A DNA stretch of 64,000 nt from Crossaster papposus (taxonomy: Eukaryota > Echinodermata > Asteroidea > Velatida > Solasteridae), in NCBI GenBank assembly GCA_037893245.1, contig JBAIAA010000749.1, positions 1,296,527-1,360,526 of the forward strand. The letters run 5' to 3'. The notes under the pieces were generated by a model. The model had not been told where the DNA came from. It saw only the letters and a program-made list of their open reading frames with translations, and did no database searches. Positions 12,501 to 55,600 of the stretch are shown here, piece after piece. The stretch's first letter is position 1. The number at the start of each line of letters is the position of its first letter. The position numbers were made by a program, and so were the translations under genes.

Positions 12501-15136
12501 TGACTTGACTTTGAGAAAAATGACTTGTGACTTGACTTGACTTGAGTAAATTTGACTTGAAGACATTCCAAGTCATCATGTATTTACAATTTTATGTTGT
12601 GTTCAATCCGGCCACGGCAGCCGATGCATTTTGGTGACGGCAAATTTATTTTGCCGCGTCGCGAATCTGTACATGTACTGCATGTTGTGTGTACGCACAT
12701 GCTATTTATTACGTTGCAAATAGACAAAGTGGGAATACTTTTTTAGCTTATGTCCTTTTGGTTTTGGTTTATTCAATAAGATGTGTCTTTCCAGGATGAA
12801 TAAAACAACAAAGTGACTGAGCTTTGATTGATTAATTGAATATCACTTGGCTAGTAACAGATTGTGGATATGTACTTCAAGTTTGTCATGATATTTCTTG
12901 AAAGTTGACTTTCATTCGAGACTATAAATGACTTGTGACTTGTGACTTGACTTGACAAAAAGTGACTTGTGACTTGACTTGACTTGAGAAAATTTGACTT
13001 GGTTGCAACTCCGCCAATACCCCACTCGGTCAGTTTCAAGGCGACCTTCCCAGGGGGTGGCGGTAATTACACAAACATCTTTACCCGACCTTGGCTATAC
13101 CACGAACCCATCGAAATAACACATTGTCCCTATATAAAAGCCTCGTATACTCCCGAATTGAAAAGCCGGTCACTGTCATATACATACAGCAATCGATGGA
13201 TGTAACATGCTGAGGGTTCAAGCCCAATTATTCCAAACTTTGCCTAGCCTTGTACAAGGCGTTCGTCGTTATCCGTCCGAAATCCACGCCCGAAATCTGA
13301 AATTGTACTTTTAAATGCTCTTTTCGATCAATATCATTTTGTTCAAAACGCGTTTTGTAGCCCAATTGGGCGCTTCTAAGATATAGTTTCCCTTTAAGAA
13401 TTTCCTACTATTTTTTCTTTACAAACTTAAGCCTCAACCGAAAAAGGACACAAGACCTCTTGATTTTTCCAACAAAAATGGCGTGATCTGTGATGTTATA
13501 TATTATATACATCTGTGATGTATATAACAAGGCGGTAATATCATATACTGATGATGTTGCTCATTTTTTGGGTGGTTCTGTTAACAAAAACATTTCACGG
13601 TGAGCGCGCTACGGGGTACGGTGAGCCCGTCGAACAGACTGCTCGGCTCCGCGTACACATGTTTGTAGTTTGCCTTACTTTATATAGCTAGCTGGAGACT
13701 AGACGTAATATTAAACTGTGAGGAAACGGGGTTTATAGGGCATCCCCTTTCGATCAAGAGATTTACGTGAGAGTCAGAGATGATTGTGCCAATGCACTTT
13801 TCCCGGGGTCGTGCCGCAAAGAAGTGGCGCGATCAAATTTGGAGGTAAAAAGTTCATACCAGACGTTGGCGTCAAAGATTCTGATGTGTCAATACAAATT
13901 GCGATGTGAAACTTGTTTACTGTAGTTCAAATGGGTTTTTTGTTACTTCCAAATGAATGCGGTTTTACAATGCATTTAAAATGAGGATGCAACGACAAGC
14001 GCTAGCTGCTTAAACAATGTGCGCTGTTTGAGCAGGGCACATGAACAACCCATGCTGTTTAAAGGTAGGATACATCATTGGCAATTGCTTAAATTATCCG
14101 GAATGGTTGGATTTTGGGTTTTTTATGTTATACATGTAGTAAATATCGTTTAACTGGCCTGTCCGAAGTTTTACAATCATAGATGCCAAGAAAAAAAAAG
14201 AAAAAAAGAGGGCGTTCGTTTTCATTCGGCGTTCGTTTTCAATCGGCGTTGGGCAGTTGTTCTTTGGTTTTTTTCGCGCCGTTCGGCAGGATGGCTTTAT
14301 TCATTATTTACTTTCGTTTTAACAGTGTACTTCATAATTTTGTACCGTAGAGATGTTCACGCACACGTATAAGTCTCCACAATCGTGAATTCAGAAATTA
14401 TCGAAAACCACCTGTTGGAATCTGACAGATCTTGGAATGAGTAGGCAGAACCGTAGTGGGGAAGTATATTCTACTCCGCCCCTTAAAAGGGCAAACCGGA
14501 TACACTAGCCGCCTGCTTACCGATCGAGAAGGCATACATTCCGTTGATAGACTTGATTAGAAGAAGGCAGAATGTAGCCACAGCCATAACCGTCGTACAG
14601 ACTGGATAGACAAGGACGCTCCTGATGGGCAGATAATCGCCGAAGAAAGCCGAGCCAGACCTCCCAATCAGATCGGCTACCCCCATTATGGTCAGAATGA
14701 AGCTGCCCTTCACTTCTGGAATGCCTATGGTCGTCATGAATTTGATCTGAAAGTAAGATTAAGTCCGATTTTATTAGGCGAACAGAATATACATGGTGCC
14801 CTCCAAAAAACAAAAAACAAATAATAATAAAAAACAATAAAAAAAAAACCAAAAAAAAACAAAACAAAAACAGTATAAGGCTTGCTTTTGCGGCACTGAG
14901 GCCGAATTGGTAAACGGATGCTAAGTCTTTCCGGAAGAAAAATGTACCAAGATAGGGGCTACAACTACTAAACTAAATCGGGATTTCCTGGTATCATTTT
15001 TCTTCAAAAGAAGGATTATCTATTAATTGGTATATTTAGTTTTGGCTTTGGGTGGTGGAGGTGTGCTTGTCTGGGATTCTCCATCCGTTGGTATAGGTAG
15101 TTTTGGCTTTGGGTGTATGGTGGAGGTGTTTGTCCG

Positions 15137-15178
<42 letters not shown>

Positions 15179-18100
15179 TTTTGTTTTTTTTGTGTGGTTT
15201 TTTTTTTTTTTTTGGGGGGGGGGGGTTGGGGGGGGCACCCTGTATACTCAGTGTGGCCGACATGTTTGATTCCATGAAAGGATTAGTATTAAATGTACTC
15301 GTTAGTAATAGGCAGATTGACTGTTTTCATTGATTTCTATTGCGTATGTAGGACACTGTTTTAAGGCATATGGCATATTATTCGAAGGTATAGCTCTGAA
15401 GCCGATTTCACCAAACCTTGCGCAATGGCGCAAGTCTTTTTGCAGTACATTACATAAGTTGAGCAACATTAATTTGCTTGCTGCGCCACATTTCGGTTAT
15501 GACGGTTTGACGGACGTTGAATAGTGCGCATAAAAGGTATGCTATTTGCGCAACAAACTATCATGTTCTAAACTGGATATAAGTTTTCGTCATGATTTCA
15601 TTTCTAAACGGTCGACAAAAGTTAACTGCGGTATTAAAAAGGCGAACCACGACGTTCCAAAACTGTAATGTCGGTCGAATTTGGAAACCAGGTAAACCAC
15701 GATGTTACACAACTGTCTCAGATGGCAACTTGTCTTTTTAGAACAATCCAGGGGAACCCCGACACTGGCTCAAATCGCATGTGTGTCCAGTCTTTATACG
15801 ATTTGTAGAGATCGGTGGTCTATACCTAGGCAGGCTGGGTTGGGACAACTCATTTATTTTAAAGAAAAGAAAACTACAAGAAAGGGCATATATTAATTAC
15901 CATGTTAACAAAGGGAAAGATGAGCGAGAGGTTCATGGCAATATTGGCCAAGAACCAAAGGAAGATCCCCGGGGCCTTGAAAGCTCTCATGAAGTTCCGA
16001 AGGTCGTGCTTCAGCGAGTGCTTCCGAGGGCTAGGGTCAATCTGCTGGATCTGCTGGTACTCGGACCCCTGTCCCCCATCAGCTCTCGGTCCTGACTCGC
16101 CGCCTTTGTCCCCTGATGCCGACTCGCCAGCCCCTGACGCCGACTCGCCGGCTGCCGTGCCACCCGTGGATTCTTTCCTCATCAGCTTCTGCAGCGCGCG
16201 CTCCCGCTCCATCTTAACGATCATGTCCGTGTACTTTTGGGGAGGCGGCCGAAAGGTGATTGCGCTGAGCATCCCGATGACGAACATCCCTCCGCTGCAG
16301 ACCCGGAAGGCGCCCCGCCAGTCGATGACGTCCGATAGGAACTCTAGACCGGGATTTAGGGCGAGGGAACCTGCAACGGAACAGACCGAATCGAACCAAA
16401 ATCATCACCTGTTTTGTGAAACCATGGTATAAAATCGACCGTTGTTAGAAATAATAAAAAATGTCAACTTTTCTTGGAAACGGCGGAACACCAGATGCCA
16501 TGAATTCACAGGGTGTTATTATTCAAGTAAGGTATTTCATAATAATTTAGTGTACTTTTTTATATTTGCAACCTTAACTTTTAAGAATTCGCACCATGCA
16601 ATTCCTAAATTGACAGCAAATTTGGATGACATGCAGTAAAGAATTGATATTTCTTCTCTTGAAAGTTTCTGTAGCACTTTTAACTTAAAGGTAGGATACA
16701 CCATTGGTAATTGCTTGAATTATCATGAATAGGTAGATTTGGGGGTTGTATTTTATAGTAAATATCGTTTAACTGACCTCTCCGAAGTCTTACAATCATG
16801 AATTCCAAGAAAAGCATGAAAAACTGCGTTTGTTTTCAACCGGCGTCGAGCAGTTATTCTTATATTATCTTTGTTTTTTCGCGATCCGGTGATCGCAAAT
16901 TTGTCTTTTTAAAATATAATTTTTCAGAATAATTACAGGAAATCTAGCGCAATCATTTTGCTAGATGACTAGAATCATTATTAACTTTCAAATAAGTAAG
17001 ATATTTTCTAATAGTTCGGTAGTAAATATTTCCGATGTCTGCAAATGGTGTATCATAGGCCTACCTTTAATGCGTTGACTTTTGGGGGTACATGTACTAT
17101 ATTTCAGGTTTTAGGAATTGTATGTTAGTTTCGTTAAGACGGGAAGACAACCCAGACACAATTATTGTCTGCTTACCGACGCTCCAGCCCAGGGTCGCCA
17201 AACACGTGGATCGGGCGCTGTTCTTCCTCGGGAAGTAGGCCCCGACCAGATTGAGAGAAGTGTTGTCGATGAAGTTACTCCCTATGCCGAAGAGCAAGCT
17301 GTAGGTCAGGAAGAGGAGATGCGGGTGAGGAACGAAGCTGGAGATGAGAAGGCCGCTGCTGCACATGATCACCCCGATGATGGTGATGATACGGTGGCCG
17401 AAACGCTTGAAGAGACAGGTGGAAATCGGGGAGGCGGCGAACATGATACCGAACGCTAGCGAACCGATCCATCCTGTGTCACATGGGAAAACATGTATAG
17501 AAGGAGCAGTTAGTTTGGCGGCAAGGTACACCAGAAGGATGTAATCCGAACACTCGACCATAGCTTGAACCTGAAAGGCTCCGATTAGGCTATTATAAGA
17601 GTTGCTCCTGCCAACTGTCAGTTATAGGTCCCAGCCCGAGTGGACGTAAGGCTAGCTTTTTGGTCCAATAAAATTGCACCGTGCAGCCCCCCCCCCCCCC
17701 CCCCCAAAAAAAAAAAAAAAAAAAAAAAATATAAATAAATAAATAAATAAATAAATAAAAAACAAATTAACCATAATTATTATACTCCGTTCAGAAAATC
17801 GTCTATTGCTCTATAAAGCTTGATATATAAATATTTAATTACCACGCCTTTCTATTTCATGGTCGAATTAGAGCAATTCGACAAAATCGGCAAATCGTAT
17901 TTGTGTTACCAATGGGATATTGAGGTTAGGAACTTTCTAAGGAATTCTAAACCCAATTGCCGAATTTTGTTAACATTCGTTAGAATTGAAAAATGATATC
18001 AAAACAGTTTTAGGTAGCCGACCAGTCAAGATTAATCAAGATTCATATAAATTGAGAAAGTCAAGATGCCGCTATGTCCACGAATTACTCGGATTTTGTG

Positions 18101-21100
18101 AATCGTATACAGGGTATAGTCGTCAAAATCGTGAGGGTGTGACCTAGGCTTTATGCTACGTTTACATTATGTTCCCGGCGGCCACGGCAATCACGTTTCA
18201 GGCCACCGTGGACCAAACGGGATGGACGTGAGACAACGCGGTGGACGGAATGGGCAAACGTGACAGGCCGTGATTGCCGTGGATGCCGGGCAAGATTTTT
18301 AAACTGTCAAAAAATTTGCCACGGCAGTCACGGTGCGGATGAGAAACCTAGTAGGCCGTAGTAAAACGGGGTGAACGCAACCAAACGCGACAGTACGCAA
18401 TAGGCCGTAACCAAACTTGGAGGCGGTCCGTAGTGTGACGGGAAGCATGTATATTCCCCGGCATCTCACGGTCCTTTCAAGTTTTACCACGTTCTGCCGC
18501 GTTTAGTGCGCGTTTTGTCACGGTTGCTTCACGGTTGCTGCGCGTTTTGTCCCGTTTTGCCACGTTTTGTCACGGTTCTTACGGCAAACTAGGGTGTATG
18601 GTAGCCGTTTCGTCGCGTTCAATCACGGCGCGTCCCGGCGTGTGACGGATTACGGGTCCGGCGCGCTACGGCGCGTTGTGTTCTACTACGGTCTGACACG
18701 GCGCGCGCGGTCTGGGAGGGAGTATTTAAAAGCCGGGCCAGGCAGTGGAGCTTCATTCGAGTCTGAGCAATCGACGTAACATTACTGCATCTACAATACG
18801 AAGAGAGAAGACCAAGCTTTGAAAAAAGAAGTCCAAGCTATGCCCCCGAAGAAGCCAAGACGTACGAAGGCCCCCTGTCCTGCACCACCACCACCACCAC
18901 CAGTAGAGGAGCAGGAGCAGCCTGAAGATCCTCGCCGTTCACCACCGCCAGATAAAGAGGATGGTGCTGCTGCTGCTGACCCAGTTCCTCAACTGGAACC
19001 TGAACCTAACGGTGGGGAGGCTGAAGAAGACGCACCTGCTAGGAGGAAGGCAGCCCCCATGTAGTCACCAACTTATCGGAGGATGAGAAGGAACTCATCA
19101 TTGACTTCCTCCAGCAGAATCCCACGCTGTACTCCAAGAGGCTGGCTGGTTACAAAGCGCGCGAAAGTTGAACCACGACGTTGAAGTACAACGTTTTGAA
19201 AGTTGAACCACGAAGTTTTGAAAGTTAAACCACGACGTTTTGAAAGTTGAACCACGACGTTTTGAAAGTTGAACCACGACGTTTTGAAAGTTGAACCACG
19301 ACGTTGCCTGTCCGTTTTAGACACCATAAGATGTTCGCCTCCGACTCCCAGCAACCTGACAAGCCCCAACCAAGAGAGAAGGACCAGCAGCACTAGCACT
19401 TCAGCCAAGGAGAAGCCACAGGACGACGACCAGACAAGACCAGACCAGACCAGACCAGTGAAGTTTTGTTTTCATCTCTTAGAAAATAAATGCAAACTTA
19501 TGTGTGCATTTTTTTTATGATAGGCCAGAATTCCGTAGAATATGATTTATGTAGGAAAAGAAGTTTGTCAGATTTAAGCCACAAAATGGGTATTCTTCTA
19601 TGAAAAATATTTTAGGTTTCAGTGAGTTATTAGTACTTCATCATGAGTAAAGCAGGTTTAACTTATGCATTCAGCCCTGATTTATGATATATGACAATCA
19701 TTTATGTATTATAAAAGAATGAATAGGAAGACAAAGAATTATTTAGATCAGAAAATCAAAGGTTCATTTATTGATAACAAAGTACAGCATTAAGTAACCA
19801 GTACTTTTACATGATTTGCATAACAGAAAATGGACAATAACCATTCACGCACCCACATGGATATTGGCCTTATCATCCGCCTTCTTCGCCTTCTTCCTGA
19901 CTGCTGCACTCTGGCCTTCCCTTTCTGCAACTGCTGTTGGCCTTCTTCTTGCTGGCTGTATGCACCCAGCAAACATGCAAACACAAAATCGTCTTCATCT
20001 TGGGCATTCATGATGTTGTCTCGTCGTAATCTCAGGATACAATGATTGCTATTGCTTGGGAGGCCTTCTCTTTATACCGTGGGCACAAACGTGCTCCAAA
20101 GCTGCCTGGCATCCACGTTTCATCCGTAGAAAGCCTTGACAGAACGTGAAAAACGTGTCAGACCTTGATCAGAACGTCAGAAACGTGAGGGACCCCATCA
20201 GAACGTGACGGGCCTGGAGGGAACGTGCTGGCATCCGTGGTAGACCGCGGGCCGAACCGTAGTGCGCCTTGGAGCATCCGGGACTCAGCAGCCCCTTCCC
20301 CCCACGGCATGTCACGGATACCGTGATAAGACCGTGAGAAAACTTGGCAAGACCTAACAAAACTTGAATACAGAGAAAAAGATGCCAAAATTCCACGGCG
20401 CACTACGTTTCGGGTAAACGGGGCTGCCGTGGCCGCCGGGAACATAATGTAAACGTAGCATAACAGGGGCTATATTGGTCAAGGCGTTCGACGATTTTAG
20501 TGTCGACTGTAATCACTTTTAAAACACCCCCATTGTGAACGAGTCTCGACCAATCAGAAGTTATCAACTCTATAACTTGTATAAGGTATTTATTAATTCA
20601 AAGTATAAAGTACTAAATAACAATCCGACTACGTCGCTGGAAATTCAGCGACAAAATGAAGTAAAACCTAAGCTAATGCGAACATTTGTGCCAAGGCGTT
20701 TGACAACTGATTTTGATAAATACACTGAACAAAGATATAAACGCCCACAAAAATAAAAACGCCCCAACAATGGTTATTTGTCTTGATTTGTAAACAACAT
20801 TTGTGTCCATCTCTGCCAGTGAGGAATTGTTCAGTCATGCAGTGATTGGTGAAATCGCTGCATGACTGAACAAAAAAACATTTTTGGGGCGTTTATATTT
20901 CTGTGGGCGTTTATATTTTTGTTCAGTGTAATAGCCGAGTCACATGAGGCCTAGTCTTTGCCAAAGACCATTGTATTCGACAGCGCGTCCGCTAACGACA
21001 CGAGTTTTAGTCCAGCTCCCTCGAATTGAATTCAGTCGTCTTTGGCAAAGAATACGTAACGTGTGACGTGAGTGCCATGCGCGCACCGGCTATTGTTTAT

Positions 21101-24100
21101 CGTGGCCGACCATGGATTGCCGGGCAAAATTGGCGAACGACTTGACCAAGACTAAAACTCAACTACAATGTACATGTACATGCGTGCAATTCATGCAGTG
21201 AGTATGCTCAGTGAAACGATACACATGAACAAAGATGGGTAAACGTATTACGATTCGTGATTGTACGCAAATAATGGCCTAGTACAGTAGGTGTCGCGGT
21301 TCGCACAATACAATAGGTGATAGAAAATCCGACACAAAGGAAACAAGCTTCATGCAAACGGTGAGATCTTCCCACGTATTTGGTCGCCGCACTATCCCTG
21401 AAACCCCTTTGTAGCCAAAAGAGTTGGGCAACTTGAACCATGTGTCTTATTTCTCCATGCTTGAACTATACAGTCAATTTCGTCTGTTCGTCGAAATTAC
21501 TGTTGAACATGATTCTCTCTAATTGAGAAAGAGTGAAAAACCACAATAGCGGACAACTCTTTCAGAGTGGTTTTTCACTCTTTTAGATATTTGAATCTTT
21601 TGGAGATAATTTGTGTCCCGGAGTGAAAACCACTCTAGTGAATAACGTTCACTCTTTTTTGTTTAAAGGTATATGGGAGATTTCTGGCAATGTCGATGTG
21701 TACTATCACGGTTGACAACGAGTACCTTATACACGGAAGTCACTGTAAGATATCTAATGTAGCGATTCTTGTATTTAACCCGGTTTTCTCTTCAGTCTTG
21801 CTCTATGGTTAAAATAATCCACAAGTTAAATTTGCGAGGAAAAAGATAAAAGTTAACGACAGCCGGATTGGAACCACAGACATTTCGATCCATAGCTTAT
21901 CTCTTTACCAACTATGATATTGGCGATTTGGTTGAAGACAGCCCTTGTTATCATTATGTAGGCCTATAGTTCTTTAATGTAGCTGATGTAAACATTCACG
22001 CCAAACCTAGCCGCTGAAGAAAAAAATCGCGAACCGCTATACGGGCTTGTATTACTATGTGTCTTCCTATCCTGTATAAACTAATTCCGGGTGGCCCCCA
22101 AAAACAATAGGACAAGCATATACTTCCACTACCCTGAATATACCAATGGGTCAATAATATTTCGACACATCTCCCTATTATTAAGAGTATTACGTGGTGT
22201 TACCGCAAACTACAATGTACTTTTCGTACATTTCCTCAGTTTTCGCCACGCAAACCTTCAAATCTCATCCAAGAAAAATGATACCACGATATCTCGACTC
22301 GGGCCAATATAGTTTTACTGGTATCAGAATATTATCATTTTGACATCGGATTGTTTGTCTGCTGGGTTTAATACTTTCTTGTTTGTTTGTTTGGTTAGGT
22401 TTAGTTGAATGCACACTGCACATAGTAATTCTGAAGCAAACAGCTGTCAGGCAAAATTGTTTTCTTTCGCAACGGATCAACGGATGATGCAATCACACTT
22501 CAACAACGTACCGTCCTCGCTTTACTGCACTTCAACAACGTGGTTTACCATCAAACAAATAGTCGGCGCCTTTTTTTTTCTAGTCGTAACAAGCTAAAAA
22601 GGGTGAACTTTTAAAAGTCCGTGAGTTATAAGTCGGACCGTGTTTATAAATTAGGATTTTCCTGCGTGAAAAAACTGCAGGATTTGCCATAAAGTAAGAG
22701 TGGTTTCTGTTTGGATTTTCGAAGAGTGAATAATTATTTGGGTAGTTCGATCGGGAGGAGCGTATAGTCTAGTTGAGTACGTGTTATCATTGAAATGTCG
22801 TCAACATATCGAACTGCCTGTATGGGTGGGTCTGTGTCAAATTTCACCTTGTGAATATATGTAGGCCCCTATATACACATGTACATACAATACTATTTTG
22901 TCCGCACGACAATGATGAAATGACAAGGGGCGTTTCACTGCGGTACAGACAATAATGTTTATTTGTGAATTGAAAAATTCTTTCATCACAGATAACCAAA
23001 CCTGACTTAGTTAGGTTGTTTTATTTTGTTAGTGGCCATGTTTAATGGTATACGTACGTATGCATCAGCTATTTTGTAGAGGTGTACATGTACATACTGT
23101 ATCGCAAATGCTTAATACCCGCCAGCATATAGCTTATTTGCATTATTGGTTTTTGTTCACCAGCATGACTATGATTGCATCCGCGTATCACATGCTGGGA
23201 GTTGTTTCGCAAGAAGTCCCGACAGCTTTGGAGTAAAAATTCGGTATATTCACAGCGTTTTCTAATCTGAACTGACGTTTAATTCAGTCCCGTTAAATTA
23301 TCTTTGAACAAAATACATCTATAGTGTATTGCATGTGCAAACGTTTTCTGATGAAAATGAATAAAGGGATATAAATATTTAGGTTATAGTAAACTGAATT
23401 AAGTGGGTTTCACGATTGATGGAACAGGGGTATATTTCCCGCATTACAGTAAGAAGAGATTTAGCAATTGTTTCCTAATTAAACAAAAGTCTGTACTGTC
23501 GTCTACATGACATGTCACCCTGTTATAATTCCAAGGTCTTACCCGCATTTCATATAGGGGCCTATTTTACATAAACCATGGCGCACGCATAGCATGTTTA
23601 CTGAAGTTGTGAAAATACCACCACAAAAAGAGATGGTGTTTTTTTCTAAATATTGTGCTGGATTCAAATCATCCTAGGAGTGGGTTCGAACAGTATACAA
23701 CAGATGCAACTTAATTAGCTTCTTTTTGAACCATGGTTTTTGAAATCGCAATGTGGTCTCAATATCATCATCACAATTACATTTAACACATAGACATTTG
23801 TTTGCGTGAGGTCGGGCAAGTTTTGTTTCCATTGTTGAATATCACGCTAATAATAAACATTAGCATAATTTCCCCACGCGCGGGAAGCATGCTGGAATAT
23901 CTGAAACTGCATTACATTGTGTGAGTATATCGACTGGGCCAGGTTGTACTTTTATGGATCGCTTGTGCGTGAGAAAACGGCACCAATATTCAATAAATCT
24001 CCAACAACTCTGCGAAACACTTCCCATTGTTAAGTACATATTGTTTAAACGGCAAAATGGCTTTATCAATAACATATCTTCCTAAGTGATTACAACAATT

Positions 24101-26311
24101 GAGTTAAAAGTTCAGCTATCGTTTTTTATCATGAAATACCAATGTGGCCGATGTGAATCCAGAAATGTCAAGATAAACAGCAGCCTTTTTGATTAAATTG
24201 TTGGTAACTCTACATTTGTCATGATATCATATCAGCCCAACATCCCAGGGTCCATTCACTAAAGATTTCCATACAATAGAGTTAAAGGGAATCCAGATTG
24301 ACCTATATGCAGCCATTTATTAATGATAAACCCGCATCGGAACGCAAACATAAACAGAATATGCACGCATGTTTATATTTTGTTTTAATAACTGAATGAA
24401 AATTAACTGTGAGGGTATTGCAGGTTATAATTTTCGCCACTGTATTCGATTTGGAATGGATAAAGCTGTAGGCCTACACGGACACTGGACAGTAAATATA
24501 TTGCTAAAGACTTTCGACAATCAGAATCTTGTATCATCGGGGTTGCTTGATTTAAATCACATAAATTTAAATTTGCGATTTAAATGACAGGATTTTTTTT
24601 TTTCCAAAAAAAATCACCGATTAAATAATTATTTTTGAAAATTTATATGTATTTTTTTATTTATTTTTTTATTTGTAACATCAATTTAGTAAATATAATC
24701 AACTGGATCATACTAATTGTTTTATGTAAAACAATGCGATTTAAATTTAAAAAAATGAATAAAGTATTCGTAACTAAGTACTCGACCGAGTACTTTTCAA
24801 GTATCTGTCCTAGATCTGTATGCATTCAAAGTACATGTACCAAGAAATTTGTTTTCTTCTAACATCAACTTCATTTGTTGTCTTCTGTAAAACAACATTA
24901 TCGCTTTGTTTGCCACAAACGGCTAAATATTGTGTAGTAAACAAAGTACTGGGAAAGTACTCGACTATTAAAATTGGAGGATTCGGGACTGCATATAGAT
25001 GCTACGCACTGAAACAACCAACGTGTCTTCCGTTCACTGACCCTGCGACCTGCCATACTTTGGCCAAGCACTGAAATCTCTCTGGTCAACAACAACTTAA
25101 ACAGGCGGGTGACCTTTCGATATGCTCTATCAGTAACGGGACTGTTTGGTCATGTCCGAAATAAAATAAAGAATGGGAGCAGGTCACGGTCAAAGCGGGC
25201 ACACCCAGTTGGGCGATCGATTAAGGTGTTTTTTAATTAGATTACGTGGTCGGTTCGTTATAGGCGACCTGGGATTTAAATTTACTAAAATACATGACGT
25301 GGTCAATCTAGGCTGCCTAAGGCTAAAGTAACACTGACCATAGAGAAATGACCCTATGCACTGACCATGCACTGATCACGGGGGATAAGTACTGCGCGTT
25401 TAGGGCTCACAGTCATTTTACAAAACTGTTGGTATAAACATACTATACCAACAAGCTTTATTTATGTAGGCCCTATACATGTTCAAATAATTTACTACAA
25501 CACTCCTATAGCCAAATGTTTATACTTAATCGCAATTTACATAATTATAATACTATCTAGAGCATCATCTAACTTACCCCAACCATGGAGGAATAAGAAG
25601 GAACTCCATGCCCCCACATAGAACATTTGCCTTTCAAAGCAATATTAATTTCTCTGGACCAAAAATATGGAATACTTTACCGCTGTCTTTCAAAAGATCA
25701 AACTAAAGTTATACTTTCTGTAATTTTTTTTATTAACCTATGTCATTTTATTATTTTGTTGTCATCTGTTTCAGATTAATCCCTTGCCAGGAGTTTGTTT
25801 GTTTGTTTTTGATTTAATTTGATTTAATTTAAAACAATTTAAAGGGTTTATATTATTATTACTAGTCCTATTTAATTTATGCTAAGGTGGATCATTTGGG
25901 ACTGTTTTAGAGTTAGAAGATCAAGAAAGACATTTCTTTTTAGGCCTAACATGCCAATAACTAAAATGAATAATTTGGCGTTTTGTAAGATGAAGAACAG
26001 TACCCACCGACTTCCAGATCGCTGATTTCAAACTCTTTCTGCAGTTTGATAAAGATGACACCGAAAGCGCTCAGGATACCCGTAACTGGTGTGATGACTA
26101 GAAATGTACAGAAGGTGACCAGCCAGCCCCATCTGTTCTTCACCTGAAGCTGTTCCGAGTTGAGGGCCTCCACTATACTGTGGCGCACCCGCCTCGGGTA
26201 CCTGGTGGCAACTGCCTCCACGATACTTTGTCTGATGCGGGAAGGGTATTCCGACTGGAAGATATCCGCCATACTCGCCCGCACTCTCTGAGGAAACCTG
26301 ATGGCAGACAT
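6271..26311 (-). CDS. SLC16-type monocarboxylate transporter-like gene (6 coding exons, 556 aa)
   Basis: This is a major-facilitator transporter of the SLC16 (MCT) group, expected in the plasma membrane. Members carry monocarboxylates with protons or other small organic solutes; the substrate here cannot be read from sequence. Coding exons on the minus strand are 26311-26008, 17473-17177, 16370-15901, 14746-14521, 10898-10755 and 6500-6271. They sum to 557 codons including the stop, and every junction agrees in phase. Family signs are WGW just before TM1 (residues 61-63), a GW-IGS turn into TM2, an RFGHR loop, YFPRK before TM5, DWRGAFR at TM6, a long Ser/Gly-rich cytoplasmic loop (about residues 245-330), LIGR after TM7-8, GPTVAG before TM11 and an acidic C-tail. 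The N-terminus holds three 16-residue repeats. Neither the paralogue nor the 5' UTR is resolved. Confidence 0.88.
6501..10010 (-). other. Transporter intron 5, distal part
   Basis: This is mostly AT-rich single-copy sequence. It holds (TAA)n near 7007, a GTAGTCTGGTTTCC / GGAACCAGACTA inverted pair (about 7595-7665), a short (TA)n run near 8850 and a 25-base C run at 9571-9595. No further exon is seen. Confidence 0.4.
9571..9595. repeat. Poly(C) run, 25 bases
   Basis: An uninterrupted C run lies inside a transporter intron. It is one of about nine long C or G runs in this window. Confidence 0.95.
10011..10209. mobile_element. Short MITE with GTTTGTTTATGGTGTAAAT ends, copy 2
   Basis: It has the same ends and interior as the copy at 1133-1309, including GAGGACGACCTC and AACCAATGAGAGCCGTCGG, with a few small insertions. 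It lies in transporter intron 5. Confidence 0.7.
10755..10898 (-). CDS. Transporter coding exon 5 (TM10 and GPxxAG)
   Basis: The acceptor is TTCTTCTGTAG and the donor GTACGT, phase 1/1, 144 nt. It encodes VVGLCTGVVNSMLFKASLD, a loop and a helix ending GPTVAG, which corresponds to the GPPxAG motif before TM11. It joins exons 4 and 6 without disturbing the frame. Confidence 0.9.
11284..11477 (+). mobile_element. MITE family A (TTAA / CCAGTTCGCGCC), copy 1
   Basis: It is bounded by TTAACCAGTTCGCGCC and its exact inverse GGCGCGAACTGGTTAA. The flanking TTAA fits a piggyBac-type target duplication, leaving a 12-bp terminal repeat. Near the left end lies GATGACGTATATAAACGC, which combines a CRE-like and a TATA-like motif. 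It sits in transporter intron 4. Confidence 0.85.
12404..13025. repeat. ACTTG-rich repeat element
   Basis: Two blocks (12430-12560 and 12915-13005) consist of GACTTG / TGACTTGACTTG runs separated by single-copy sequence. ACCAATACCCA at the left edge and GCCAATACCCC at the right edge may be a target duplication. Apparent SSQVKSQ-type open frames are products of the repeat. Confidence 0.6.
14058..14330 (+). mobile_element. MITE family B, copy 2 (right end lost)
   Basis: It starts TTTAAAGGTAGGATACATCA and matches copies 1 and 3 through AATATCGTTTAACTG and AATCGGCGTTGGGCAG, with an A-rich expansion near 14190. The mirrored right end is not found. It carries a 6-bp CATGTA gain relative to the other copies. 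Confidence 0.65.
14131..14138. other. TACATGTA micro-insertion in a MITE copy
   Basis: The sister copies read TTTTATAGTAAA (16685 copy) and AATTTATAGCAAA (3450 copy). This copy reads GTTATACATGTAGTAAA. The difference is exactly CATGTA after the TA. Confidence 0.7.
14521..14746 (-). CDS. Transporter coding exon 4 (TM7-TM9)
   Basis: The acceptor is CTTACTTTCAG and the donor GTAAGC. It encodes IKFMTTIGIPEVKGSFIL, GVADLIGRSGSAFFGDYL and a further hydrophobic helix ending in YAFSI. The GxADLIGR motif matches the TM8 region of the family. Confidence 0.9.
15030..15236. repeat. TTTTGGCTTTGGGTG repeat, (GTT)n microsatellite and T/G runs
   Basis: Two copies of a GGTATA..TAGTTTTGGCTTTGGGTG segment are followed by about twelve GTT units, a T run and a long G run. 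The same segment occurs once at the window start. The poly-Q, poly-T and poly-C open frames here are artefacts of the repeat. Confidence 0.8.
15901..16370 (-). CDS. Transporter coding exon 3 (TM5-6, central loop, TM7 start)
   Basis: The acceptor is CCGTTGCAG and the donor GTAATT. It reads through DWRGAFR and TM6, then a charged amphipathic helix (MERERALQKLMRKE), a low-complexity loop with repeated GESASG, a basic stretch (RKHSLKHDLRNFMRAFKAP) and the first half of TM7. The loop is the large cytoplasmic loop of MCTs. Confidence 0.9.
16685..17070 (+). mobile_element. MITE family B, copy 3
   Basis: It begins TTAAAGGTAGGATACACCAT and ends with the inverse, interrupted by a TAGGCCTA octamer. It is the longest copy and includes a GCGATCCGGTGATCGC palindrome and CTAGCGCAATCATTTTGCTAG. 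It lies in transporter intron 2. Confidence 0.8.
17056..17063. other. TAGGCCTA micro-insertion in a MITE terminal repeat
   Basis: The expected terminal sequence is GTATCCTACCTTTAA. This copy reads GTATCATAGGCCTACCTTTAA's equivalent: GGCCTA has been gained at the TA, with one C-to-A change beside it. Confidence 0.7.
17177..17473 (-). CDS. Transporter coding exon 2 (TM2-TM5)
   Basis: The acceptor is GTGACACAG and the donor is GTAAGC, in phase 1/1. It encodes WIGSLAFGIMFAASPISTC, the RFGHR loop between TM2 and TM3, then TM3-TM4, YFPRK and the start of TM5. This arrangement is typical of the N-terminal half of MCTs. Confidence 0.9.
17687..17760. repeat. C-run / A-run / (TAAA)n
   Basis: A C run passes directly into a longer A run and then TAAA units. 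The same C-then-A order occurs at about 15195-15236 (reverse strand), 50509-50525 and 55585-55609. It could be a retroposon tail or a slippage product. Confidence 0.85.
18723..18731 (+). promoter_or_regulatory. TATA-like box of the Harbinger plus-strand gene
   Basis: TATTTAAAA lies about 110 bases before the ATG, followed by GC-rich sequence and a leader without an ATG. The position suits the promoter of the MADF-type frame. Confidence 0.45.
18840..19064 (+). CDS. Harbinger accessory protein N-terminus (Pro/Glu-rich)
   Basis: It starts MPPKKPRRTKAP and continues as a Pro- and Glu-rich acidic tail, 74 codons to TAG. Directly after, in another frame, comes LSEDEKELIIDFLQQNPTLY, which resembles the start of a MADF domain, so one frameshift separates the two parts. 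In Harbinger elements the MADF/Myb-like partner helps nuclear import and DNA binding of the transposase. This copy is a remnant. Confidence 0.55.
   Translation: MPPKKPRRTKAPCPAPPPPPPVEEQEQPEDPRRSPPPDKEDGAAAADPVPQLEPEPNGGEAEEDAPARRKAAPM
19068..19170 (+). pseudogene. MADF domain start, frame-shifted and cut short
   Basis: It reads LSEDEKELIIDFLQQNPTLY then SKRLAGYKARES and a stop. The (I/L)xxxxxNPxLY(S/D)K pattern is the first helix of MADF domains. The rest of the domain has been replaced by a 22-bp tandem repeat. Confidence 0.55.
19161..19304 (+). repeat. 22-bp tandem repeat inside the Harbinger element
   Basis: About six units of GAAAGTTGAACCACGACGTT plus two T, nearly identical. It replaces the middle of the MADF-type gene. 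Confidence 0.85.
19790..20011 (-). pseudogene. Harbinger transposase N-terminal fragment
   Basis: It reads MNAQDEDDFVFACLLGAYSQ, a Gln-rich stretch, then RRRRRRMIRPISMWVREWLL. A run of Arg followed by [WI]xRPW-like residues is typical of the N-terminus of PIF/Harbinger transposases. The DDE nuclease region is absent, so no active enzyme is encoded. Confidence 0.6.
20723..20928. mobile_element. TA-flanked MITE with CACTGAACAAA ends
   Basis: TA flanks both sides. The ends are CACTGAACAAAGATATAAAC and the inverse of CACTGAACAAAAATATAAAC. A second internal hairpin pairs GTTCAGTCATGCAG with CTGCATGACTGAAC. TA duplication suggests a Tc1/mariner-like or related transposase. The termini CA...TG would leave TA-CATG-TA if both ends were kept on excision. 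Confidence 0.75.
20931..26007 (-). other. Transporter intron 1, proximal part
   Basis: No exon is recognised. It includes a TTTGCCAAAGAC / GTCTTTGGCAAAG inverted pair (20955-21050), repeated GAGTGAAAAACCAC motifs in both orientations (21530-21660), a stretch saturated with ATTTAAAT (24545-24755), an AAGTACTCG / CGAGTACTT palindrome near 24776 and TAGGCCTA octamers near 21958, 24470 and 25941. Confidence 0.4.
26008..26311 (-). CDS. Transporter coding exon 1 (N-tail and TM1)
   Basis: It starts at ATG 26311 and ends ...DLEV plus one base before GTGGGT. Residues 6-53 are three 16-residue units of the form [FY]PxR[VI]RxS, followed by RWGW and the hydrophobic TM1 (about 61-90). The first in-frame Met is used as start; an upstream non-coding exon is possible. 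Confidence 0.85.
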
Positions 26312-44861: not shown

Positions 44862-45175
44862 CGCAAAATCCTCTCCCTACATGTACCTGAGTACCTGGCC
44901 ATTAACCTGCCAGATACAGCACAGTGCATCAGGTGGAAAAATCTTCTACACTTTGATGCATTCAGTCGTTAACAATAGTGCATAAAGTGTCAAGTCCAAG
45001 ACTAATGAAAGCTAGAATACCAATGAGAGCTAATCCCTACAAACTCTGAGGCAGTTTGGCCCCAAGTGAGATTTTTGACCAGATTGATCTTGCTGCACTG
45101 GCATGGGCAGGCTAGTCATTTTCACAAATGGTGCATGTTGCTGCAGGGGACGGGTTTCTAGCCGGATAGGGTTAA
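44862..45175. repeat. TTAA-ended element rich in TGCAGCA/TGCATT motifs (copy 1)
   Basis: It ends GATAGGGTTAA. Phrases such as CTGCCAGATACAGCACAGTG and CAAGTCCAAGACTA reappear in inverse orientation in the element at 56180. It overlaps the ZNF839 3' UTR. Confidence 0.45.
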
Positions 45176-45388
45176 GGCAGCGGGTACAAGGTACCAACCT
45201 TACCCATAAAACCATAGAATTAACTTGAGGCCAAATAGAAAATACCTTTGGTTTGGATCACATGGTTAGAAAAAAATTGCTTCGGTCAGTCGGTATTTTA
45301 TTTTATGTGAGAAACCATTTTTGTTTAGACATGTTTATCGTAAGAAGTTTGTAAGTTCAACCATACCGGTACGTTAAGGCAAGGATTG

Positions 45389-46049: not shown

Positions 46050-47165
46050 TGTTACGGTTCTCAGTGGTTCGTCAGGTCAGCCTCTTGCGGTGATATAAAT
46101 TGAAAAAATGTCATCAACTTTCCCACAAATCTGAATGTCATTTTTAAATTTCATTGGATAAAATTGCCACTTTCTTTTTGGAAAATGTTCACAAGTTATC
46201 CTAATGTCTAGAGCAAAATACAGTTATTACATTCAAAGCGCTCGTGCATGAAGTCAACAGAAAGTAGGGAGAATTCAAATCGTATTTCGTATGGTACACG
46301 GTATACTCTACTAGCGCTGCACTTTCACGATCGTAAAATCAACAAATTCTCCATTGCATTCATTGTCGATGTCTCAGACAAATCTGACCACGTCCAAAGT
46401 AATAATAAGCTACACCTGGAAATAACACATGGCTATAGAAGCATCTGTAGCCACTTGCCATTGACTTGTATGTTATTCTCAAATGTAGCCATGTATTCTG
46501 GTCGCAACCGTACTCATTGCCCGAGTAGGCATCGGTCCTAACTTCAGCACAGCATGCACGTGTATTCTGTCCCTCGGTCGTTAGACCGCGATGATTTTTT
46601 TCGAAAAAAAAAATTCACTGGCTGATAAAATGCCTATGAAATTGTTTGGCGGTCAACGATTTTGACCTGTTATGATCGGAATTTTATCGCTTTCAAAAAT
46701 AGGTTGGTCAGGTGACCCGAACCAAAAGTACCGGTACATGTACATGAATGTATTGGTTTGGCCTATAATCAATCACAAGCAGTCTCATTCAATAGACACT
46801 GTCATTTAAATCATACAATGAAGGGCTTTTGGGCGTAGGAATACTTCCAATAGCTTAGATGCAGACGGATAAATATATGGCTTTTTATTCTGTGGGCATA
46901 TCAACACAAATTACTTATTTTATTCTGATGAGTTTGTCTTCCAAAGTCCTACTTTTGTCCTGCTTTAAACAAAAAAATTGATGTTATTTTTTTTTCAAAT
47001 TTTTCATCTGGATCTGCTTGAAAAGCCTGAAAGTGCATTTATGTTTGCACAGATCAGGTGATTTTCTTGTTTTTCAATTCACACTTATGCCATTGAAAAA
47101 GAAAAACACTACAAAGTCGTGTGAAGAATTTCCTTGTTTTGTTATGTGTCACTGAGCCCGACGCA
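46050..47165. other. Intergenic between convergent genes, nothing recognised
   Basis: No supported exon. A TACCGGTACATGTACATG cluster at 46731 belongs to the octamer class. The rest is AT-rich. Confidence 0.35.
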
Positions 47166-47446: not shown

Positions 47447-47454
47447 TACATGTA
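47447..47454. other. TACATGTA micro-insertion in a MITE copy
   Basis: Copy 5 reads AGAAATATCTTAC; this copy reads AGAAATACATGTATCTTAC. Exactly CATGTA has been gained at the TA. Confidence 0.75.
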
Positions 47455-47605: not shown

Positions 47606-47613
47606 TACATGTA
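47606..47613. other. TACATGTA micro-insertion, second in the same copy
   Basis: Copy 5 reads TTGACATCCATGATT; this copy reads TTAGCATACATGTACATGTTT. The length differs by six, which fits a CATGTA gain after a TA. Confidence 0.6.
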
Positions 47614-48072
47614 CATGTTTGTAAAACTTCGGACAGGTCAGTTAAACGATATATTCACTATAAAATACAACCCCCCAAATCCACATATTCTTGATAATTC
47701 AAGCAATTACCAAAGGTGTATCCTACCTTTAACACTGGCACGCTACTCTGGATGTATAGACTTATTAAACCTGGCACAACCACCTTTTACAGGGCTGAAT
47801 TCAATTTATTTTGACAAGGAAGTGGCACAGCATTTAGAGCAGGCCTATGGCACATAAGATCATGACAAAATATGGGACTGACAAGGTTTACAAAACTTGT
47901 GTGTATGGATATACTTTGAAACACTAATGTTTTTCATTCTTACATTAACAGGAATATGTACAAATATGTGGGCAGTGACTCTTTTGTACATAATGCATGG
48001 CGTTAAAGCGAAAATGTGGGCTCAATATGCTTTGTGCCATATTATGTATTATTTGTATATTTCTTGTGATTA

Positions 48073-48276: not shown

Positions 48277-48980
48277 TGTTCAGTAGTTTTGTTGGGATTG
48301 CATTGTGAGTTTCGATCTACACTCCATGCTCAGACCACCAACTTGCATTTCGCTGAGAATTGTGTTTACAGAGTTGATATTGATAACCATCGTGACACTT
48401 GGTGTTCGATGCGTTTTTTGAGAACCTGCATTAAAACCTGCATTTCTATATTCTCAAATCTCACTCTCAATCTTGCCACTAAGACTTGAAATCAAGTCGG
48501 TGATTGGCCTGGTTTTTACTGGCTTAGCATAGACGGATAAAAGTATACCGTTCTGGGGTAGTACGTGTAGCATGCAGTATGGCACAAACTTGTGGAGATC
48601 TTTGTAGGTCAATACCAACTACATGTACCAATTTAAATAATCTGTTCTCGACTTTGTACACAGCATGGGATGGAGCAATCTGCTTGAGTATCATGACAAA
48701 ATTAATATTTATATTACACCTTACTTTAGGGGTACAAGTGAGCTTTCATTGGCCCTCTATGGAAGCATAATGCACCCATTTTGCTCCCCACATGAATGAA
48801 TACTGTCCTGGAATCATATTACACACTATGCACAGCGCCATGCTGGCAAATATTCGGGGCACGAACAGACGAAACGCGATTGTCTGGCTAGGTTGGGCTT
48901 GTAAACAAAGTGTGACACTATGACATAATTTATCTAATGTCAGCACAGACCATGTACCTACCTAGTTTCGATATGCACTC

Positions 48981-49462
48981 CTAACCACAATTCCTCCAAA
49001 ATCCTCTGCAAATAGCAGGATTTAGAACATTTTGGGTTTTGCCACTGGAGGATAATGCAGCATCCAGGTCATGAGGCCTAAACTAAAGCTGGATGATTTT
49101 GGAGGATTGAGGTTACTTGGGTATTTATCTAAATGAGGATTTTAGAGGATTGAGGTTATTTGCTACTTTGTACTTTTTACTTTTACACTGCTCATGCTCT
49201 ATGCACATTCTCCATAGAGCTTCAGTCAAGGTGTAAGTTACATGTATGTGTCAATGATAGGAAACATTTGCATACTAATAGAAATGTGTGCATATCCTTG
49301 TAGTAGGGCACTTACTGTAGCAGCTGTTTGTTCCATAGCTCAATGGTATAAACCCACTGCAAGATTTTGCAGGATTCAGGCAGTGTTTACCAGGAATACT
49401 TTTGGAAATTTTGCAGGATTTAGGTTATGTGTAAGAAAAATGGGGAAGGGAGTTAGGGTTAA
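48981..49462. repeat. TTAACCC-type element saturated with AGGATT
   Basis: It begins CTAACCACAATTCCTCC and ends GGGAGTTAGGGTTAA. GGATTTAG, GGATTGAGG and GGATTCAGG recur at least eight times, mostly in one orientation. Confidence 0.5.
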
Positions 49463-49613: not shown

Positions 49614-51286
49614 TATGTTGGCGGTTTTTCAAATTGTCAGAATCTTTGTTTGAGGGCGCTACTCGGAAGTCATAAAGACCAGAATGTCGTGTGGCCAGTG
49701 ATCATGACCAATTTTAAGATAAATTCTTATGGGGATACAAACCGAGTAATATGACTGAATTGTTGAAATATTGTTACTTTATATATTTTAGCTTTATAGA
49801 GGGATTCAATTTTTTTCAAGAATGTGAACCGAGTTGTTTAAGATCACTCCAATTATGCTTTTAAGACACGGTCAAGCATTCTTGATGAAACATGTTTGTA
49901 AATTTGTTGCAGCAGGTTGTTTTGCCATGGCATATTGTGTTCAATATGTCATTAAAAGATTACATCAACAGAACATCGTCTGTTATTTTATTACTAGATT
50001 CGTTTTACGGGAGGCAATCCTGGAGGTATCATCTAAACATTTGCAATTATGAAGGGTTCAGGCACAAAATCACTAAACACCACTTCCATGAAAAGCTATT
50101 TTTACTATATCAAGTAAAAGATCTGTGTCTAGTATACAATAATCAAATGTGTTTTTTGGGGGGCGTTTAGCAGCTTTTGCATCTAAACTCTTCATATGTA
50201 ATATAAATTAAAGTTATATAAGAACAGCCAATTTAACCACAGCGCCATTCTTTTTCGCGTGAAATTGAAGGCTGCTGAAAATGGTCATTCGATTTCATTT
50301 ACTGACTAAGCAAATGTACTGTTGTTATTTGATTCAACAAAATAACATTCAAATTCGGCAGGCATTTCCATCATTTGTGCAATCTAAAAAAACGATCTGA
50401 TGTTAAACTTTTGTATTAAAATGTTAGAGTACGGTTCACTTATTGGCACAAAAGTCGACATATAAACCAGGTTAACAATTTAGGTCTTGGTCAGGTAACC
50501 AATTTCACCCCCCCCAAAAAAAAAAATATATATATATATATAACTACAACCACTAGGCTACATATGAATTGAGAAAAACAAAAGTGAAGATACGAAACAA
50601 ATGTATAATTTGTTTGTTTATCTGTTTATTCGCATTTCTTTGTCGTGCTTATTTGAATTCTCATTTTAATAGTGAAATTGATTACCTCTTTACGAAATAA
50701 AAATATAAAAAAATCAGCAAATATCTCCTGTTGAACCAGTTTTGCTATTGAATGATGATTGTGCGTCACGAAAAAAACCGACGATATGCTAAATTGAACA
50801 CATTGCTAAAGGAATTTGAATGCCTCAAAACTAAAATTGAATTTGAAACACAGTTAAAAACTGTAGGCAAAATCGCTTTAATTCGAACAGACGAACACAC
50901 ACAAATTAAATTGGCTATTCACAGCAGTGACAGTTCTCAAAATCCAAAGAATGGTGCTTGACAACAATTAAACCCAACAAAGTTTTAGCTCTGTATTCTG
51001 AGAGAAAAAACAAATTCTAAAATTTAGATTTTGATCCAACTACTTGATGAAAATTTCAAAAATTGTGTCTTCGAGACGCATCATTTGACTTTTTATGTTA
51101 TTTTTTTCTCAAAATGACAGAATGCTATCAGGAATAATTTCACGAGGAGATTAGAGTCATTAATATCTTTACATCAAGTAGGCTTTTAAACATTAATACA
51201 TGTATACTTTCCCTTTACAAATAAATCCTTTGCCAAAGTGACGACACCACACTATTCTGCCTGGGCTGTTCTCTTCAGCTTCTTTC
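49614..51286. other. Intergenic, nothing recognised
   Basis: AT-rich sequence with a C/A junction followed by (TA)n at 50509-50540. On the minus strand TTTATT near 50638 is a distant AATAAA for CINP; no closer one was seen. Confidence 0.35.
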
Positions 51287-52430: not shown

Positions 52431-52627
52431 TCACCTGTGGCCTGTTTCCCTCAGCATGCTCTCCAAGAGGATCGTCGCCTCTTTGTCTATGTACGGTTGA
52501 TGCAGCCAGGCAGAGGTGTAAGTCATGAGCACATCACGGCTGCTAGCATGTGCAACATCCTCTAGAATGGCCTTTTTGAGAGACAGTTCCTTGCTGTACA
52601 TGTCCCCAAGACGAGAAGATGTTTCCC
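52431..52627 (-). CDS. CINP: CINP coding exon 4 (C-terminus)
   Basis: The acceptor is CATTCCTTGTTCAG. It encodes WETSSRLGDMYSKELSLKK, AILEDVAHASSRDVLMTY, then WLHQPYIDKEATILLESML and RETGHR, followed by TGA. Human ends LESMLLETGHRAL, two residues longer. Residues 177-209 are the part that is repeated in the downstream array. Confidence 0.93.
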
Positions 52628-55600
52628 CTGAACAAGGAATGTGTGTAAAGATCAAAATGTGTTCAGTCATCGGCAATGACTGTGAATACTCGCGTGCACT
52701 ACGCAGCTGGCAGCTGGCATGTGATATACATGTGAATGGACCAGTGAGAATTCAGCTCTTGATTACGATTACATGTATAGTATACATCGACTATCCACCT
52801 CAAATAAACCTTTTTTTACTATCTCATATACATGTACATGTATTCAACTTGTTTTTAAGTTAGAAATCAGTTATTACGGCAAACGGTTCTGTGTGTACTG
52901 TATGCTACCCACTTTTCGTGTGGCTAGGGCAATGTAATGTGCACTATCCCTGTGTAATATTTCAACAAATGCTTAGTATCAAAAGTGCTCGGTTTGTGAT
53001 GAATACTTGCACATGTCCAAAGCAATGATTTGTTTTTCACAAACTATATGACTAAGAACTTCTTTAACCAGTTCGCGCCGGGATTATTTTAACATGACCG
53101 AGCCGAGGCGCGAGATTATTTTTAACGAAACTCGATCCGAGGCGGGTTCAGGCCGATGGTACCGGGAAGCACAACCACGCATTTCCGGCCTTGCTCGCTG
53201 CTGATAGACATTTTCGTCCTTGCTCGTGACGTGTTTATGCGTCATCCGTTTTGAATCTGGGGACAACTTTGGTGTATATACGTCCTCCGGCACGAACTGG
53301 TTAAACTTATCGAAAATACGCTTTTATGTTAAAGGTAGTATATTATATACCATTTGCAGATATCAAAAATGTTTACTACCGAATTATTCAGAAATATCTT
53401 ACTCATATGAAAGTAAATACTGATTCTAGGCATCCAGCAAAATGATTGCGCTAGATATCCTGTAATTATTCTGAAAAATTGATTTTTATAAATCGCGATC
53501 GCGAAAAAACACAAATAACATAAGAATAACTGCTCGACGGCGGTTAAAAACAAGCGTTGTTTTTCGTGCTTTTCTTGACATCCATGATTATAAAACTTCA
53601 GACAGGTCAGTTAAACGATATTTACTATAAAATACAACCACCCAAATCTACTCATTCATGATAATTCAAGCAATTACCAATGGTGTATACTACATGTACC
53701 TTTAAGAAAGCTGGAGCGATTTAATTTACTTGTAATCTTGGCTGCTCGCTTGGCATACTTTTACCCACAACAGGCTCATCCCCCCAAAAGGTTTTCTAGC
53801 AAAACTTTGTTTTTGCACATAATGATAATCTCGGAAATTCTTTGACATAAAAGAATGCTGGGCAACTTACAGAAGAGGTGGGCAGGCCACGTCTGGAAGA
53901 TCGGCTGTTCTTCGTCAGTCCTGGATAGACTTTTCTTCATTTCGCTGACACCTTGTAGATGTCTGGTGATATTGGCCATCTTCTTAACAAGTTTCTCCTA
54001 TGGAAACCAAAGTTTATAGAGACCATAATTCAAGTATTTTAGAAGACATGGTTCCTATGGAAACCCAGTCCTCAACAAGTCTCTTGTAGCAACAAGAAGG
54101 TGCATCTAAACATCGTAATACCCTGCTTTGAACTTTAAATTACATACAAAGTTAGCATATTCAGATGTCTGGACATCTGCCTGACAATGTTCAACAATGC
54201 TGTGTTGAATGCAACATTGGAATTCAAACGAATTTCGGAACAGATGACAGATAAACACGTCACGAGCAAGGCCAGAAATATATGTCAGCGACCGGCTCAC
54301 AGCGAGCAAGGCCAGAAATGTCGGGGTGTGCAACCCACAGATGCTGGCCTGAACCCGTATCGGATTGAGGTTCATGTAAAACAATTCCGCGCCTGGGTCC
54401 GGTCAATGCAATATAATCTCAACGCTAACTGTGCAATAGTGCAATAAAGGCCACTTTAAACAGACCCCCACCATTTTATTGCAGATACCAGTCAGTTCAG
54501 CACAGTGTTCTTCCATTCCATCTGGCATGTGTGTAGTTGTAGTGCATGGGGCCTCTGTCTCCATATTTGTCACCCTGTCTGTCATGGTAGCAACTTCTGA
54601 GGACTCGCTGTAATTAAAGGATAAGATGAAATACTTGCGTTACAAAAGCAAAACCCTTATTATATGTCAATTGTTAATCTTTGATATCATTCTTAACTTG
54701 AATGAATGAATGAAGTCAGGCTCTTGAAAAAAAGTGGGGGGGGATATGTACCTGTGTTATGCTGAAATTGTTAAACGGTAGCCGTCAATACCAAACAAAA
54801 AGCCCCCACCCCCACCACCACCACCAACAAACAAAAACAATGACAACAACAATGGCACTCTGGTCTTGTTAACAGTAACATTTTCAAACATCAAAACACA
54901 AAACTACCAAAATATTATACGATTCTTACTTGGCAGTGAATAATACTTAATACTAGTCTCCAGCATTCTGTGGAATCATGGCACCTGGTGTGCCGTCATT
55001 TATAATAAAGATTGTTTTGCTATTTTTGTATCAATTTACAATGATTCACTAAATTTAGTTACACGTAGTCAAACTGGCATCAGGCAGTGTTTCTTATGTT
55101 GTTTTTTGCTATCGACGTCTGGCGATAGTGATTTTTTTTTATTCAATTTTTTGAAACTCTTATACTAGTTATAGGATATCTAGCGCAATCATTTTGCTGG
55201 ATGCCTACAACAAAAGAGTTAGCCAAGTACCAACCTGCATGTCCTGGGCATATGAAGCAAGATATATTGGCAGCAAACCCTAACCCTAATCTTAACCCTA
55301 ATCTTAACCCTAACCCTAACCCTAACCCTAACCCCCCCCCCCCCCCCCCCCCCCCCCACAAGTGTGTAATGGCCTTCGATCGTGGACGGGGTATTGTCCG
55401 ACCGTCTTCCCTCTTTTGTTTATACTCTAACGTTTTTTGATGATCGCCATAGGATTTGTACACGGGAAAAGATCGTGGACGTTTTGTCAATCGTGGACCC
55501 ATTGTTTGACTCCCAATTCTTTTGTCCGACGACCACGATTGCCGGTCATTACACACGCCCCCCACCCCCCCCCCCCCCCCCCCCCCACCCCCCCCCCCCA

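Follow-up and report, generated by a model that had tools for sequence, protein, structure and literature searches.

In C. elegans, taCATGta is described as a footprint of the transposon Tc1 and called rare (PMC3520976, citing Eide and Anderson 1988; this and the other papers are cited here from excerpts). It contains the TA duplication and two bases from each element end. The same word, TACATGTA, recurs in a window of 64,000 bases of the starfish Crossaster papposus (assembly GCA_037893245.1, contig JBAIAA010000749.1, positions 1,296,527 to 1,360,526), the single stretch, from one haplotype, to which all results below refer. Whereas the footprint is rare in C. elegans, 28 copies occur here in 64 kb, together with two further classes of the form TA-NNNN-TA, TAGGCCTA (GGCC) and TACCGGTA (CCGG), and with chains; the element here is not identified as Tc1.

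Related transposons leave scars of other lengths. For ISY100 (IS630/Tc1/mariner), an offset of two bases has been measured (PMC2170065), and the rejoined junction is TATATA (+4, vs. +6 here), presumably owing to self-complementary overhangs. Tc1/mariner and pogo tools (ZB, Passer, Sleeping Beauty) also leave short footprints at TA, with 0–3 bp for ZB, 0–4 bp for Passer and 2–4 bp stated for the superfamily (PMC7913693, PMC9976928); theirs were measured in cells and are variable, whereas those proposed here are deduced from sequence and have mainly one clean length per class. In Phytophthora, two of the same three octamers are abundant (PMC3520976, PMC3597505), as the predicted promoter motifs M93 (TACATGTA) and M94 (TACCGGTA) (PMC3597505). 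They were interpreted as binding sites; the authors of PMC3520976, where TACATGTA is a reported preferred site of Irx homeodomain proteins, weighed a footprint origin and set it aside. Among the literature matches listed, as far as their excerpts extend, none describes a genomic stretch with footprints at such density.

Exact counts are 28 for TACATGTA, 11 for TAGGCCTA, and 6 for TACCGGTA. In 100 dinucleotide-preserving shuffles, the means are 1.56, 0.49, and 0.60 and the maxima 7, 3, and 2; Markov models of orders 1 to 3 give expectations of 0.48 to 2.5 for the three octamers. The approximate counts of the initial annotation, and the excess over background that it claimed, are thereby borne out. 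CATG, GGCC, and CCGG are 3 of the 16 palindromic tetramers, raised 10 to 20 fold, and the sole further TA-palindrome-TA octamer clearly raised is TATATATA (17 vs. 2.9, order-2 Markov), a microsatellite-type word. The octamers (n = 45) occur at one per 1.4 kb, about 42 above expectation per 64-kb window, and fall into 40 clusters (35 single, 5 two-unit) spread evenly along the sequence (Kolmogorov–Smirnov p 0.77). Their flanks appear unrelated by eye, on which ground a single dispersed repeat carrying the octamer is rejected. Beyond the octamer clusters, the cores show no excess (ACATGT 21 observed vs. 26.6 expected, AGGCCT 8 vs. 9.7, ACCGGT 4 vs. 9.5), and the signal is thus the entire TA-NNNN-TA unit. 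Longer retained ends are rejected by their counts (1 for TACACTGTA, 1 for TACAGTGTA, 0 for TACACGTGTA, and 0 for TACAGCTGTA).

Comparison of sister copies is possible for 8 of the 45 octamers, and 7 of these, at six loci, read as gains (+6 bp each, +12 at 31608), some with caveats. Most of the comparisons involve family B, a TTAA-flanked miniature inverted-repeat transposable element (MITE) with ends AGGTAGGATACACC, which we take to be Kolobok- or piggyBac-like (copies at 3451–3736, 14059–14232, 16685–17070, 47384–47732, and 53329–53693, with a further end near 27335–27375). Four short gains, all different, are found in its terminal repeat: +6 CATG, +6 GGCC, +5, and +7. At 14131, the gain is exactly 6 bp relative to all four other copies; at 53691, it is also 6 bp relative to all four, read by eye in the aligned rows because the aligner misplaced it. 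At both loci one of five copies carries the octamer, which is therefore the derived state, and an ancestral octamer lost by deletion is rejected there. At 17056, the GGCC gain is exactly 6 bp relative to B3451 and B47732r, with one adjacent substitution and a plain TA as the empty site; B53693r differs there otherwise. The claim that one TA in the family B terminal repeat was hit twice (17056 and 53691) is confirmed; the two gains lie in opposite repeats. At 31608, TACCGGTACATGTA is +12 relative to 57131–57230, where the empty site reads TT, and the two copies do not give the polarity; the gain of 12 reported earlier thus holds for length, but not for a TA in the sister. The change from TA to TA-NNNN-TA proposed in the initial annotation, with a doubled TA, is found at 14131, 53691, and 17056, and carries caveats at 47447 (a nearby loss) and 47606 (sisters without TA, as at 31608).

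We read the octamers as footprints left on excision by cut-and-paste transposons of Tc1/mariner type that target TA, with a probability of about 0.8 judged from the sequence; the source transposons are probably short and non-autonomous for the most part. An element would insert at TA, duplicating it, and the transposase would cut exactly at the element 3′ ends and two bases inside the 5′ ends, leaving a 3′ overhang of two element bases on each side of the chromosome break. If the break were then joined with both overhangs retained and copied, the product would read TA, two bases, their complement, and TA, a net +6 bp. Since the element ends are inverted repeats, the tetramer would be self-complementary: CA...TG would yield CATG, GG...CC would yield GGCC, and CC...GG would yield CCGG. 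What the window shows directly is the excess, its confinement to the full TA-flanked unit, the +6 and +12 gains against sister copies, and one resident TA-flanked CA...TG element; the class of the transposase, the way it cuts, the joining of the ends, and donors of the GG...CC and CC...GG types are deductions. The resident element (20721–20930, CACTGAACAAARATATAAACGCCC at both ends) is a candidate for the donor class of the CATG footprints.

Two-unit chains number 5, whereas second hits falling on TAs at random would give 0.43 (P about 1e-4). Three are CATG-CATG (TACATGTACATGTA), for which slippage could be the source, and two are CCGG-CATG (TACCGGTACATGTA), for which it could not. The three TACATGTACATGTA chains listed earlier are present, but two of their coordinates were off by one (4274 becomes 4275, 52828 becomes 52829). 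In an IMG/VR scan, TACATGTACATGTACATGTA matched three contigs, and L001, the sole one counted, has three TACATGTA, which are the chain itself; three repeat motifs had no IMG/VR matches. In pure CATG clusters, examined post hoc, C follows TA or G precedes it in 22 of 46 flanks (background 0.21), and the full G..C context occurs at 6 of 23 such clusters vs. 246 of 4532 TAs (p 0.001, also post hoc). Two of the six G..C sites (21171 and 23085) precede CAT and could be chain remnants. We hypothesize that a G-TA-C preference makes the footprints self-seeding.

With the arrays masked, the one-mismatch relatives of the three octamers number 38 (32–36 expected), 17 (13 expected), and 12 (12–15 expected), for 27, 11, and 6 intact copies. 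That they are not clearly in excess suggests little decay, and octamers younger than the family B copies, among which pairwise identity is 72 to 87 percent. For 12 control palindromes, however, the values vary between 0.58 and 1.74 times expectation, and the decay estimate is thus a rough bound. From the five to seven gains that are intact, the divergence would lie below about 0.05–0.07, a value biased because intact octamers were what was looked for.

Other gains at TA were sought with probes from which the insert had been removed. For TA-N4-TA, a first run gave 35 sites with a possible empty match: four were kept (14131, 17056, 47447, 47606), 29 were discarded on visual inspection (low complexity, a weak match, or a match at an edge), and 60454 and 60457 were neither kept nor dropped. 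A stricter run with 300 probes left 14131, 47447, 47606, the array sites 60454 and 60457, and 53302 (AACT), the last rejected as a 6-bp gain, being an artefact at an element edge. The site at 17056, found in the first run, lies below the stricter cut-off, and 53691 lies too close to the end of the element to be probed. Outside arrays, all 6-bp gains at TA in the window that survived the TA-N4-TA probes are palindromic. Array site 60457 (CTAG, palindromic) reads TACTAGTA and is not classed because the array units show 0, +1, +3, and +9 forms. TA-bounded probes with spacers of 0–3 and 5–10 matched at 32 further sites, 31608 included (spacers 2, 3, 5, 7, 9, and 10 were inspected, 0 and 1 left out). 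Spacer-4 probes with the 15 other dinucleotides gave 28 matches, several being rotations of 47606 or of the array site, which were not gone through singly. Outside the array, 6 of the 9 accepted TA-bounded gain loci have lengths divisible by 6 and palindromic units. Among the indels unique to one of the five aligned family B copies, 6-bp octamer gains make up 2 of 11, a count in which three of the 11 come from the truncated copy B14059 and three further octamer gains were missed by the count or the aligner; the earlier suggestion of a major source of short indels is not established by it.

Several observations weigh against an origin of the octamers in excision. For 37 of the 45, the window holds no comparable copy. 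At 47447, another 6 bp are missing from this copy at a distance of about 14 bp, and aligning it to 53345–53462 without gaps, and so without any gain, costs little identity (77.97 percent instead of 79.66 percent). At 47606, the sisters read TC, TT, or CC instead of TA, and a six-base tandem duplication fits equally well. The octamer at 60137 is not a gain: other units of the array hold TACATA-like words and no empty TA. Non-palindromic gains bounded by TA also exist, +5 at 53339, +7 at 27345, and +9 at 62615; the confinement of 6-bp gains at TA to self-complementary tetramers stands outside arrays, but palindromes are not the only inserts. The +5 and +7 gains lie within family B terminal repeats, as do 17056 and 53691; this spot may thus gain short DNA in several ways, and the terminal repeat may be generally unstable. 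Half footprints are weakly raised for one class (TACATA 30 vs. 19–22, TATGTA 25 vs. 19–24), and TAGGTA and TACCTA show no increase in the window. In rice, 8 of 94 excisions left just the doubled target, and most carried deletions or filler (PMC4423477, in excerpt); uniform clean footprints are thus not a universal rule.

The donors add to these points. Inverted repeats bounded by TA are commoner than in shuffles whichever end dinucleotide is considered, with few exceptions, and the inventory alone therefore does not point to CA, GG, and CC; the CA-ended ones give 3 matches, with an element-like end at 20721 only. No secure GG...CC donor was found in the window (the candidate at 22862–23564 is weak, matching over about 11 bases, and at 55694–55899 TATA on both sides makes the target duplication ambiguous), and no convincing CC...GG donor was seen there. 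The search for full elements with matching ends, proposed at the outset, has thus yielded one candidate for CA...TG and no secure one for the other two classes. The element at 62601–63832 has TA flanks, GT...AC ends, and a near-perfect inverted repeat (91 percent over 326-base arms), and the footprint predicted by its ends, TAGTACTA, is absent from the window. No transposase was found among the 9 reading frames scanned against Pfam, the remaining frames not being scanned. The footprint explanation put forward in the initial annotation thus keeps the excess, the core and flank test, the clean gains, and the described Tc1 word TACATGTA on its side, but neither GGCC and CCGG donors nor gains restricted to palindromes.

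Three other explanations have to be weighed. In the first, which we regard as rather unlikely, CATG alone would represent Tc1-type footprints, GGCC and CCGG deriving from another superfamily with GG or CC ends or from local repeat or palindrome effects. The two classes have one supporting gain each (17056 and 31608) and lack a secure donor, 2 of the 6 CCGG sites lie within local repeats, and the window contains a Harbinger-type MITE with GGCC...GGCC ends and TAA flanks; against this, the GGCC excess (11 vs. 0.49) is as clean as that of CATG, and its single gain falls at a plain TA with exactly 6 bp. Micro-insertion, slippage, or template copying at TA, producing several lengths among which self-complementary gains are merely conspicuous, would account for the +5, +7, and +9 gains, the unstable array site (+1, +3, +9), 47606 read as a tandem duplication, and the three CATG-CATG chains; it does not account for a rise confined to some palindromic tetramers (3 of 16, with others not raised), it leaves the mixed CCGG-CATG chains unaccounted for, and we hold it to be very unlikely. 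Selection on protein-binding motifs is highly improbable, even though the Irx site (PMC3520976) and the Phytophthora motifs (PMC3597505) share octamers in the excerpted texts and selection would also fit the scarcity of one-mismatch relatives: a binding motif should raise the core under other flanks, which is not the case, and it is therefore rejected for this window, where entire 6-bp gains are found within MITE copies and where TAGGCCTA corresponds to no motif in the excerpts of either paper.

Other mobile elements are present. Family A (about 243 bp, ends TTAA-CCAGTTCG...CGAACTGG-TTAA) occurs at 31981–32222, 36169–36411, and 53064–53304 and in eight more copies, full or partial; by its TTAA flanks it is presumably a piggyBac-type MITE. 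The TAA-flanked MITE GGCCGTGTCC...GGACACGGCC (57100–57236 and 31528–31660) looks Harbinger-like by its TAA flanks and GGCC ends (end consensus in the excerpted Table 1 of PMC4423477). Neither the TTAA elements (families A and B) nor this MITE would be predicted to leave TA-NNNN-TA, and they are rejected as the source. A tandem array at 58665–60710 has units of about 246 bp, and its variable site (0, +1, +3, +9) adjoins GCGCTA, with TACTAGTA at 60457.

Table 1. Octamers, chains, and the candidate donor element in the window (strand given as '.').
Feature	Coordinates	Strand	Basis
TACATGTA, 6-bp gain, one family B copy	14131..14138	.	absent from 4/4 other copies
TAGGCCTA, 6-bp gain, family B terminal repeat	17056..17063	.	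copy comparison; one adjacent substitution
TACCGGTACATGTA, 12-bp gain	31608..31621	.	vs. 57131–57230; polarity not given by two copies
TACATGTA, 6-bp gain, family B copy	47447..47454	.	6-bp loss nearby
TACATGTA, 6-bp gain, family B copy	47606..47613	.	tandem duplication as alternative
TACATGTA, 6-bp gain, family B terminal repeat	53691..53698	.	by eye, aligned rows
Chain TACATGTACATGTA	4275..4288	.	window word search
Chain TACATGTACATGTA	41405..41418	.	window word search
Chain TACATGTACATGTA	52829..52842	.	window word search
Chain TACCGGTACATGTA	46729..46742	.	cluster listing; without sister copy
TACATGTA	4553..4560	.	exact count
TACATGTA	12670..12677	.	exact count
TACATGTA	17089..17096	.	exact count
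TACATGTA	21171..21178	.	exact count
TACATGTA	23085..23092	.	exact count
TACATGTA	24832..24839	.	exact count
TACATGTA	31509..31516	.	exact count
TACATGTA	32716..32723	.	exact count
TACATGTA	36616..36623	.	exact count
TACATGTA	38266..38273	.	exact count
TACATGTA	44878..44885	.	exact count
TACATGTA	48620..48627	.	exact count
TACATGTA	49239..49246	.	exact count
TACATGTA	51197..51204	.	exact count
TACATGTA	52770..52777	.	exact count
TACATGTA inside tandem array	60137..60144	.	part of excess count, no 6-bp gain
TAGGCCTA	5151..5158	.	exact count
TAGGCCTA	5339..5346	.	exact count
TAGGCCTA	8442..8449	.	exact count
TAGGCCTA	11030..11037	.	exact count
TAGGCCTA	21959..21966	.	exact count
TAGGCCTA	24469..24476	.	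exact count
TAGGCCTA	25941..25948	.	exact count
TAGGCCTA	38459..38466	.	exact count
TAGGCCTA	61060..61067	.	exact count
TAGGCCTA	61182..61189	.	exact count
TACCGGTA	36853..36860	.	exact count
TACCGGTA	45364..45371	.	exact count
TACCGGTA, surroundings a local TAGCAC-type repeat	56452..56459	.	exact count, flank reading
TACCGGTA, center of short inverted repeat CACTGACCTCT/AGAGGTCAGTG (62145–62185)	62161..62168	.	exact count, flank reading
Short TA-flanked inverted-repeat element, CA...TG ends, CACTGAACAAARATATAAACGCCC at both	20721..20930	.	inverted-repeat search

The mechanism and the main class are already known, TACATGTA having the described Tc1 footprint sequence (PMC3520976, in excerpt); what stands out here is the density (one per 1.4 kb), the three end classes together, and the chains. 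It is possible, though doubtful as a joint proposal, that short indels in this lineage stem to a leading extent from cut-and-paste scars, which would be young, densely spaced, and self-seeding; that CATG footprints favor G-TA-C and create new G-TA and TA-C edges, building CATGTA chains as transposon-driven hexamer repeats; and that the TA-palindrome-TA spectrum is a census of the terminal dinucleotides of active TA-targeting transposons, vanished ones included. If this were true, with about 42 surplus octamers per 64-kb window, excision and end joining would contribute substantially to mutation in some genomes, and a plain octamer count could reveal this elsewhere, even for elements that have vanished. 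Abundant palindromic motifs in other eukaryotes, such as TACATGTA and TACCGGTA, would then call for caution, as they may include transposon scars.

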